Positions 32,002 to 33,347 of a DNA stretch of 64,000 nucleotides are shown here, piece by piece. The notes beneath the pieces were generated by a model. That model saw only the letters and a program-made list of their open reading frames with translations, did not search any database and was not told the origin of the DNA. Source of the stretch: Faecalibacterium duncaniae (GTDB lineage: Bacteria; Bacillota; Clostridia; Oscillospirales; Ruminococcaceae); NCBI RefSeq assembly GCF_010509575.1, contig NZ_CP048437.1, forward strand, positions 1,922,001 through 1,986,000, in the 5' to 3' direction. Each line of letters opens with the position of its first letter. Within the stretch, counting starts at the first letter, position 1. Made by a program: the position numbers and the translations under genes.

Positions 32002-32871
32002 TTACTTTGCGAAGATCTGGATCCAGTTGTGGCCCCACTGAGAATTGGCATCGTAGTTGTAGCCAAGGCACATATACTTGGCGGCGGGGTCCATGATATT
32101 GACACGGTGGCCTTCCGAAGCCATCCAGTCTGCAACGACTTTTTCGGGCGTGGTCTCGCCCCAGGCGGCATTCTCGCCGGTGGCGGTATCAGACACACCG
32201 TACTCCTTCAGCACGGTGAAACAGTTGGTGCCATCGGGGCGGGTGTGGGAAGCGACCTTTGCCACTTCCTTTGCGCGCTCATCGGCGGCGGCCTGCAGCT
32301 TGGCATCGCCCATAGCCAGAGGTGCCAGATTTTCCTTTGCACGCTCAGCGTTGACCAGCGCCAGCACTTCCTGTGCAAAACCGTTCTCACTGGTGCCGCG
32401 GGCGTAGGTGAAGATCATCACCCAGTAATTGCCATACTCGCCGCCCTCGTAGTAGCCAATGCCAACGGAGGTGGCATCCTTGTCCAGCATCCGCTCCTTG
32501 AAGAAATCGTAGCGATTCCAGGCGGCGACCACATCCGAAGCATCCTCAGCAGCTGCCCAGTAGTTCTCGCCCACGGAAACATCGTCCACACCGTACTCCG
32601 GCAGGATGGTGAACTCGCGGCTGCCATTGGGGCGGTTGTAGGAGTAATTGACGGTAAGTTCTTTTGCACGGGCCTGTGCGGCAGCATTCAGTGCGCTGCT
32701 GCCCATGCTCAGAGGAGCCACACCAGCCTGTGCACGCTCTGCGTTGACGAGCTGCAGCAGCTCATCGGCCTTGGAAGCTGCGTGTGCGGGCATTGCCAGA
32801 ACAAACATCAGGCAGATGAATGCGGCGCAGCAGACCAGATTCTTCAGGACTTTCATCGAAGCGTTACGCAT
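32002..32871 (-). CDS. Secreted protein with two CAP (SCP/PR-1) domains
   Basis: 289 residues with a Sec signal peptide (Lys at 7 and 10, hydrophobic core, cleavage after AMPAHA) and two tandem CAP domains. Both contain the LVNAERA start motif; the second (about 160-289) has VADWMASEGHRVNIMD and TGENAAW, resembling typical bacterial CAP domains, while the first has AAWNRYDFFKERMLD in place of W-x-S-x-GHR. CAP proteins of bacteria are extracellular and of largely unknown activity. Start ATG at 32871 has AGAGG; the longer frame begins inside the riboswitch terminator. Expression is controlled by two c-di-GMP riboswitches upstream. Confidence 0.9.
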   Translation of the reverse strand: MRNASMKVLKNLVCCAAFICLMFVLAMPAHAASKADELLQLVNAERAQAGVAPLSMGSSALNAAAQARAKELTVNYSYNRPNGSREFTILPEYGVDDVSVGENYWAAAEDASDVVAAWNRYDFFKERMLDKDATSVGIGYYEGGEYGNYWVMIFTYARGTSENGFAQEVLALVNAERAKENLAPLAMGDAKLQAAADERAKEVAKVASHTRPDGTNCFTVLKEYGVSDTATGENAAWGETTPEKVVADWMASEGHRVNIMDPAAKYMCLGYNYDANSQWGHNWIQIFAK

Positions 32872-32901: not shown

Positions 32902-32944
32902 AAAAAAGGTGTCGATTGCTGGTATACTCGGCAATCGACATCTG
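32902..32944 (-). terminator. Terminator of the gene-proximal c-di-GMP switch
   Basis: On the minus strand, GATGTCGATTGC and GCAATCGACACC form a stem followed by TTTTTTC, 30 bases before the CAP start. It follows the second aptamer and is the expression platform of the switch. Confidence 0.85.
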
Positions 32945-32999
32945 ATGCTTCAGATGAAGGTCACTCAACACCCATTCTCCGCTGTGGAGACCCTCAGGT

Positions 33000-33090
33000 G
33001 ATGAGAAGCAACTGGCTGCCATTTTACAGGCCCTATAGCTTTGCGTCACAGCCTTTCGACTGCTTTGCCGAGGATATTCAGTTTTGCGTG
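33000..33090 (-). promoter_or_regulatory. Cyclic-di-GMP-I (GEMM) riboswitch, gene-proximal copy
   Basis: On the minus strand the conserved elements occur in order: GGCAAA, a P2 stem capped by GAAA, GACGCAAAGCTATAGGGCCT, TAAAATGGCAGCC, and the P3-like stem ending GCAGCCAGTTGC. These match the GEMM-I consensus (GACGCAAAGC...GGCCT...ATGGCAGCC). It is about 85% identical to the second copy 200 bases upstream. A terminator follows at 32902-32944. Confidence 0.9.
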
Positions 33091-33122
33091 CCTTTCTTCT
33101 TTTGGGAAGAAATTTGAGAACG

Positions 33123-33168
33123 AAAAAAGGTGTTGTTCTGCAATACACTCAGCAAAACAACACCTAGA
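33123..33168 (-). terminator. Terminator of the distal c-di-GMP switch
   Basis: On the minus strand, AGGTGTTGTTTTGCT and GCAGAACAACACCT form a stem with TTTTTTC behind it, located between the two aptamers. Each aptamer therefore has its own terminator. Confidence 0.85.
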
Positions 33169-33199
33169 AAATCTAAGCAGGTCGCCCAAAGAAAGATTT

Positions 33200-33290
33200 C
33201 TTTGAGAAGCAGCTGGCTGCCATTTTACAGGCCCTGTAGCTTTGCGTCACAGCCTTTCGACTGTTTTGCCGAGAATATTCAATTCACCTT
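33200..33290 (-). promoter_or_regulatory. Cyclic-di-GMP-I (GEMM) riboswitch, distal copy
   Basis: Same conserved elements as the gene-proximal copy: GGCAAA, GAAA tetraloop, GACGCAAAGC, GGGCCTGTAAAATGGCAGCC, GCAGCCAGCTGC, on the minus strand. It is the first aptamer transcribed, about 45 bases after the predicted start site, and is followed by its own terminator at 33123-33168. Confidence 0.9.
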
Positions 33291-33318
33291 GAGGAGCCGT
33301 TTCCATTTCCTCGACGCT

Positions 33319-33347
33319 ATCCTACCACATCGGACAGAACCTGTCAA
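33319..33347 (-). promoter_or_regulatory. Promoter of the riboswitch-CAP transcript
   Basis: Reading the minus strand: -35 TTGACA (complement 33342-33347), 17-base spacer, -10 TAGGAT (complement 33319-33324). Confidence 0.65.

Follow-up and report, generated by a model that had tools for sequence, protein, structure and literature searches.

The riboswitch leader and the CAP gene

The window analyzed here is a 64-kb stretch (G000:C1:1922001-1986000) of a 3.1-Mb single-contig Faecalibacterium genome. Faecalibacterium is a butyrate-forming commensal of the human gut and is usually described as non-motile. On the minus strand of the window, a candidate promoter is followed by two c-di-GMP-I aptamers, each with an intrinsic terminator downstream of it, and then by the gene for a CAP protein, whose start codon lies 30 nt beyond the last U-tract (Table 1). 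A preliminary description of this DNA had read it as a series of two complete c-di-GMP-I riboswitches with one terminator apiece, placed before the gene for a secreted CAP protein, and this layout was borne out by cmscan, by the hairpins with their U6 tracts and by Pfam. The aptamer coordinates given there were correct to about 11 bases, the -35 hexamer of the candidate promoter begins at the end point that it gave, 33347, and a start of the type expected for secretion is present, as judged by eye.

Table 1. Features of the CAP leader and gene, in window coordinates
Feature	Position	Strand	Remarks
Candidate sigma-70 promoter TTGACA-17-TAGGAT, 5′ of copy 1	33319..33347	(-)	10/12 matches, TG before -10
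Aptamer 1, c-di-GMP-I (RF01051)	33205..33280	(-)	58.1 bits, E 9.1e-9; G20, A47
AT1 of copy 1, aptamer-1 strand CUCGGCAAAACAGU	33260..33273, possible partner terminator-1 5′ arm 33161-33148	(-)	14 uninterrupted pairs including G-U
SH of copy 1, free-state spacer hairpin	33185..33206 (33206-33198 with 33193-33185)	(-)	Overlaps P1 3′ strand
AT2 of copy 1, second antiterminator helix	33158..33184 (33184-33172 with 33168-33158)	(-)	Occupies outer terminator 5′ arm; register hand-picked
Intrinsic terminator 1	33123..33164 (hairpin 33164-33129)	(-)	13-bp stem, 10-nt loop, U6; -18.9 kcal/mol, z -5.4
Aptamer 2, c-di-GMP-I (RF01051)	33004..33079	(-)	55.5 bits, E 3.9e-8; G20, A47
AT1 of copy 2, aptamer-2 strand CUCGGCAA	33065..33072, possible partner terminator-2 arm/loop 32934-32927	(-)	8 uninterrupted pairs
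SH of copy 2, free-state spacer hairpin	32964..33005 (33005-32997 with 32973-32964)	(-)	
AT2 of copy 2	32936..32963 (32963-32950 with 32945-32936)	(-)	
Intrinsic terminator 2	32902..32942 (hairpin 32942-32908)	(-)	Followed by U6; -14.1 kcal/mol, z -5.9
CAP protein, 289 aa, two CAP domains	32002..32871	(-)	Signal-peptide-like start (by eye); PF00188, 103.5 bits, two stretches

A search of the full window with cmscan at gathering thresholds returned two RF01051 matches, each covering positions 1-87 of the 87 in the model. The covariance search that had been proposed as a check thus placed both copies over the gathering score of 35 bits. The two aptamers agree at 72 of 76 bases, and the whole units are 71% identical over 171 aligned columns, which indicates that the expression platforms have diverged; the earlier wording, "nearly identical" copies, therefore holds for the aptamers and fails for the units as wholes. 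Both aptamers carry the GAAA loop on P2, which in this class docks into a receptor in P3 and for which CCUGUAAAAUGG is the candidate receptor here, and a P3 arm of 2 bases as compared with 13 in the model. Folded alone, the aptamer strands gave z scores of -1.4 and -0.3 against 200 shuffles, with 18 and 69 shuffles folding equally well or better, so that neither strand stands out clearly from shuffled sequence, and the minimum-free-energy fold of the copy 1 strand differs from the aptamer.

A candidate promoter with 17-nt spacing also stands 5′ of the homologous leaders in three further genomes of the genus (TTGACA-17-TAGTAT in G007, TTGACG-17-TAGAAT in G014 and TTGACA-17-TATACT in G015). A promoter scan of the leader gave no second promoter between copy 1 and copy 2. 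The scan gave two more matches on the minus strand, one in each aptamer at equal relative position, and these were taken as chance. With two aptamers, two terminators and one candidate promoter upstream, the leader fits the pseudo-cooperative class of tandem riboswitches, those with multiple expression platforms, as described in PMC9481103.

The CAP gene is the only one found in the genome, and its PF00188 score, in two stretches, compares with a cut-off of 21.1. Two NCBIfam models matched the protein, both below their curated cut-offs: the YkwD family (TIGR02909; 142.1 bits, cut-off 171) and DalA (NF052539; 78.9 bits, cut-off 200). The protein also differs from these in having two CAP domains, the first of which lacks the histidines of the second. 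No sequence relative was found in the PDB at E 1e-3. The usual histidine-bearing site of CAP domains is the CAP tetrad. We aligned 26 rows, the window protein and 25 of the 368 relatives found, and in domain 2 H209 and H255 are present in all 26 and H281 in 22, while in domain 1 Y78 and Y149, invariant in all 26, occupy the places of H209 and H281 (places matched by eye). Thus domain 2 looks canonical, and domain 1 resembles a CAP domain that lacks the usual histidines. DalA is reported to bind peptidoglycan (PMC10470522), and by analogy we would guess at cell-wall binding by the CAP protein.

Proposed antiterminator pairing and the probable direction of the switch

None of 200 shuffled sequences was as stable as terminator stem 1, and none of 200 as stable as stem 2. 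A simple terminator scan of the window returned neither hairpin, presumably due to its 3-8 loop limit. In both copies the terminator 5′ arm and loop carry the antisense of the core strand of their own aptamer (CUCGGCAA). In this helix, AT1, CUCGGCAAAACAGU can pair with GUUGUUUUGCUGAG in copy 1 and CUCGGCAA with UUGCCGAG in copy 2, with duplex energies of -20.3 kcal/mol (p 0.002) and -16.8 (p 0.020), respectively, against dinucleotide shuffles. Runs of at least 8 AT1 pairs occur in six of the seven CAP-leader-type units (14, 12, 9, 9, 9 and 8 pairs) as compared with 3 of 22 other c-di-GMP-I loci in the genus, a set that excludes L018, where no terminator was found. Runs of 9 to 12 pairs belong to both G007 copies, the single G014 unit and G015 copy 1, and the exception is G015 copy 2, with a run of only 5. 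Across the six units the duplex p values were 0.002 to 0.068, stated without multiple-testing correction for four comparisons at each of 29 loci (30 minus L018). By energy alone there is a counter-example, L032, with a 5′-arm/aptamer duplex of -16.4 (p 0.142).

The GAG of AT1 in the terminator loop is invariant in all five aligned units though dispensable for the terminator stem, and SH and AT2, helices picked by hand, can form in all five as well. Compensatory columns over the five units number one for SH, four for inner AT2 and two for the terminator; the SH column is contributed by G007 copy 1, and of the four AT2 columns three come solely from G000 copy 1, in a hand-picked register. Changes in the AT1 columns are one-sided only.

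The more usual antiterminator, formed through the 3′ strand of the aptamer, was considered and rejected. In the six AT1 units the 5′ arm paired with the aptamer 3′ strand no more stably than shuffled sequences did (p 0.126 to 0.960), and the 5′ core strand was therefore taken as the partner. The copy 1 terminator 3′ arm also pairs with the aptamer 5′ strand at -11.9 (p 0.024), to which we attach no interpretation. Among the four other riboswitches of the genome, pairing of the terminator 3′ arm with the aptamer 3′ strand was significant only in L004 (p 0.010; 0.184 to 0.521 in L003, L005 and L006), and for this reason we claim no direction for these four. G015 copy 2 has a candidate alternative antiterminator, GCACC...AAGAG with CUCUUGGUGC, spotted by eye.

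We conclude that the leader probably consists of one promoter and two complete c-di-GMP-I riboswitches that act independently and each switch transcription OFF, ahead of the gene for a secreted CAP protein. In the absence of c-di-GMP, the emerging terminator 5′ arm would be captured by the aptamer core strand, which holds G20, together with the spacer helix, and polymerase would read through. With c-di-GMP bound, the aptamer would be locked and its core strand unavailable, so that the terminator hairpin could form and the transcript would end. The decision would fall during synthesis of the 40 nt (copy 1) or 61 nt (copy 2) that separate aptamer from terminator. Of this model, the analysis shows the aptamers, the terminators and the complementary strands with their conservation; we infer that the ligand binds, the direction and kinetics of switching, and its consequence for CAP output.

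We estimated the probability of the terminator in ensemble folds with the aptamer free and then enforced, using the full U-tract and, in brackets here, a tract with four fewer U. In copy 1 the probability rose from 0.12 to 0.99 (0.17 to 0.99). Copy 2 went from 0.70 to 0.90 (0.88 to 0.90) and thus barely switches at equilibrium. The G007 units went from 0.02 to 0.96 (0.84 to 0.99) in copy 1 and from 0.19 to 0.91 (0.91 to 0.92) in copy 2; the G015 units from 0.00 to 0.29 (0.02 to 0.97) in copy 1 and from 0.92 to 1.00 (0.74 to 1.00) in copy 2; and the single G014 unit showed no shift from 1.00 (1.00 in both states). In the comparison set of other-type loci, from which L005 and L037 were left out, L003 and L006 stayed at 1.00, L025 stayed at 0.99 and L028 dropped slightly from 0.64 to 0.58. 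In the predicted folds, pairing of the full U-tract with A-rich sequence 5′ of the aptamer contributes to the free-state effect. With the shorter tract this effect shrank in copy 2 and both G007 copies, three of five responsive units, and it held in copy 1 and G015 copy 1. Before the 3′ arm exists, the 5′ arm is partly paired with the aptamer, at a mean of 0.68 in copy 1 and 0.45 in copy 2; this measure does not discriminate, given that 11 other-type loci ranged from 0.00 to 0.74.

These folds bear on the opposite direction, in which c-di-GMP would block termination at both sites and the leader would hold two ON switches, as in Bc3-5 of Bacillus thuringiensis. The best-studied tandem c-di-GMP-I system is indeed an ON system (PMC4759541), and in copy 2 and the G014 unit aptamer formation is predicted to favour the terminator little or not at all. 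With the full U-tract, however, enforcing the aptamer raised the terminator probability in every CAP-leader unit with a free value under 0.8, five in all (L001, L002, L023, L030 and L031), and lowered it in none of the seven. Moreover, it is the 5′ arm of the terminator with which the aptamer pairs, hence folding of the aptamer should release the terminator. We therefore consider a pair of ON switches improbable, and c-di-GMP most likely switches CAP OFF. The modelled OFF direction is well supported for copy 1, and for copy 2 it is weakly supported.

It has also to be asked if copy 1 could be the only working switch, with copy 2 a near-constitutive attenuator or a decaying duplicate. The terminator of copy 2 is nearly independent of its aptamer in the folds above, among the six units with AT1 it has the shortest run, and in Clostridioides difficile 5 of 12 class-I riboswitches were reported to be without a detectable downstream transcript (PMC6200980). 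Against this, SH, AT2, AT1 and the terminator are all kept in both copies, and the terminators look position-specific in G000 and G007, with a GUUG-type arm in copy 1 and a GUCG-type arm in copy 2, which suggests selection on both. We regard a lone working copy 1 as unlikely, if less so than two ON switches. The likeness of the terminators to their G007 counterparts, copy by copy, would mean that the duplication predates the split of the two lineages. Whole-unit identities show no such copy-by-copy pairing of G000 with G007 and do not support this order: G000 copy 1 shares 75.0% with the first G007 copy and 78.5% with the second.

Under the two-switch OFF model only transcripts that escape both terminators reach CAP, which predicts tight silencing of CAP at high c-di-GMP and its release at low c-di-GMP. 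A pair of identical OFF switches that act independently has, in the simplest model, an effective Hill coefficient of 1.19, as compared with 1.00 for one, and a half-point at 0.41 K; the response falls from 90 to 10% over a 40-fold range of ligand instead of 81-fold. The expectation that a double switch responds more steeply than a single one is thus true, by arithmetic, but modest. By the same arithmetic, the larger expected gain of two copies would be a squared, and therefore lower, leak. What results is a probable tight OFF control by c-di-GMP over a secreted protein of a gut commensal.

Relatives, ligand and regulon in the genus

RF01051 matches were found in 13 of the 31 Faecalibacterium genomes. 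A CAP match at E 1e-10 was found in 16, of which 10 have a long orthologue (E 1e-93 or better); the one named species found through CAP is F. hattorii (L017), at 66% identity. An aptamer pair precedes the long orthologue in three of the 10 genomes (G000, G007 and G015), with start-to-start spacings of 201, 209 and 180 nt, respectively. The other seven have no RF01051 match there, with the leaders of G027, G017, G028 and G029 also inspected, and a single aptamer precedes the long orthologue in none of the 10. Aptamers come right after an EtfA gene in G015, G002 and G012 (by Pfam in G012 and by a near-identical protein in G015 and G002). The G014 genome has no CAP match and yet carries a complete riboswitch unit (L024/L059, G014:C1:1827951-1828026), whose next downstream gene belongs to UPF0029, a family also found 3′ of CAP in G007, G017 and G027. 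This unit may be a regulatory remnant, or it may control a different gene. In a survey of the family Ruminococcaceae, 76 of 298 genomes contained RF01051, and two or more same-strand matches within 400 nt were seen by eye in at least eight of these (G000, G015, G051, G055, G076, G127, G152 and G246).

We take the positions of bases 20 and 47 from the numbering of the Vc2 structure. Both window copies have G20 and A47 in the pocket, and thus neither has the A at base 20 that marks GEMM-Ib/cGAMP aptamers. This speaks against a different ligand, 3′,3′-cGAMP or a variant of it, under which the gene would not be controlled by c-di-GMP. The last place of the GHxxGD motif we presume to be the Hypr position. 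In the window genome the GGDEF motif was readable in three of five fetched proteins, in each case as GHxxGD with a last place other than serine; the readable motifs are likewise GHxxGD in G015 (five of six fetched, of seven) and G002 (two of three fetched, of four), the rest being unreadable. The residue named in the cyclase literature is S347 (PMC6456294). A different ligand nevertheless draws some support from relatives: GEMM-I aptamers with A20 can prefer cGAMP (PMC9481103, PMC6456294), and A20 in place of G20 (TTTAGCAAA) occurs at 4 of 30 loci in the genus (L031, L025, L028 and L019), among them the first aptamer in the homologous leader of G015. For the window copies we hold a ligand other than c-di-GMP to be very improbable.

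In the CAP tandem of G015, a sister species, the two aptamers differ at this ligand-specificity base, with A20 in the first (L031, G015:C12:365758-365833) and G20 in the second (L022, G015:C12:365938-366013). The lone aptamers of G002 and G012, which like this pair follow an EtfA gene, also have A20. The readable GGDEF motifs are canonical in G015 and G002, which leaves the ligand of the A20 aptamers unexplained. If A20 shifts ligand preference as it does in Geobacter, a mixed tandem would have evolved from, or beside, a same-ligand tandem. It is conceivable, if doubtful, that the CAP double switch can become a two-signal gate, with G015 as a natural mixed tandem for c-di-GMP and cGAMP (or another cyclic dinucleotide).

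A different pocket base varies elsewhere. Base 47 of L005 (G000:C1:1263250-1263325) and of its orthologue L037 in G007 is G (GACGCG) instead of the expected A, and the L005 aptamer was still called RF01051 by cmscan against all Rfam families (L011).

The preliminary description had also proposed a count of GGDEF genes, and we found five GGDEF matches in the window genome, together with two EAL matches, one of them partial. GGDEF is present in 30 of the 31 genus genomes. The six RF01051 matches of the window genome are the CAP pair and four single riboswitches. The latter precede genes with a signal-like start as judged by eye, namely LRR/BspA proteins (L009 and L012), a beta-helix protein (L011) and a 118-aa stub without a Pfam match (L010). 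As the six matches precede five genes with secreted-like products (by eye, one a stub), we suggest that c-di-GMP may mainly set the cell surface in this organism.

Two further RNA motifs lie near these riboswitches. Just 3′ of an LRR surface gene that has a c-di-GMP-I riboswitch upstream, there is a match to SpF66_sRNA, a Streptococcus sRNA family (L012:11936-12138, G000; 44.8 bits, cut-off 42). Near another of the riboswitches is a pemK RNA motif (L010:4291-4352, G000, minus strand; 68.8 bits), and the ORF that follows it (L010:4100-3018, minus) contains a PemK/MazF-like domain (81.7 bits) and DUF6551 (326.3 bits).

Homopolymer tracts were seen in a number of promoters. A search with GGGGGGGTATAAT for poly-G directly before TATAAT in the promoter spacer gave 10 matches, spread over 4 of the 31 Faecalibacterium genomes (reversed control, 0), with runs of 9 to 39 G. 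Eight of the 10 precede an ORF with a start like that of a secreted protein or lipoprotein, by eye, and two lie upstream of a c-di-GMP-I aptamer. The homopolymer-tract promoter loci are L005/L086 (G000:C1:1263217-1263229), L004 (5′ of G000:C1:882139), L003 (5′ of G000:C1:2628040), L020, L037/L087, L085 and L088-L094; the tracts upstream of aptamers include 20 A at L003, G6 at L004 and G10 at L020. From their sequence, these tracts look like slipped-strand phase variation of surface-protein promoters, sometimes stacked on a riboswitch. A literature search found no paper on poly-G promoter phase variation of this sort.

Comparison with known systems

Tandem riboswitches with a shared ligand have a precedent in Bacillus anthracis, where Welz and Breaker (2007) reportedly described tandem TPP riboswitches, two riboswitches for the same ligand with two expression platforms. 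The CAP leader differs from these in ligand and in target genes. For c-di-GMP-I, 347 doublets and 12 triplets have been reported, more than for any other class (PMC9481103), and a later survey counts c-di-GMP among the riboswitch families enriched in tandem (PMC12452182). Paired c-di-GMP-I switches are thus already known, and the CAP leader is a further example. The word Faecalibacterium is absent from the main text of the later survey, and searches of the open literature listed no paper on c-di-GMP riboswitches in Faecalibacterium, judging by titles and abstract openings.

The closest likeness is to Bc3-5, upstream of cspABCDE in B. thuringiensis CT-43, where full riboswitches of this class likewise follow one another upstream of cell-surface genes, every one with a terminator of its own; this triple tandem was shown to be more digital in its response (PMC4759541). 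Bc3-5 is an ON system with three copies and controls Csp surface proteins (PMC4759541), whereas the CAP leader is probably OFF and has two copies before a CAP protein. The class-I riboswitches of C. difficile (Cd1, the Cdi-1 group) share with the CAP leader a Gram-positive gut host, a mostly OFF direction (probable in the CAP leader) and, in some cases, surface or secreted targets (PMC6200980, PMC9262584), and by RNA-seq six of the seven responsive ones are OFF (PMC6200980). Cd1, an OFF switch, also has a long spacer, and ligand can bind there before the decision is made (PMC9262584). Its antiterminator pairs with C87 and G86, on the 3′ side of the pocket (PMC9262584), whereas that of the CAP leader would mainly take the 5′ core strand with G20. 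The probable direction is the new element here, and an antiterminator that grips the core strand of the aptamer probably gives a simple account of it.
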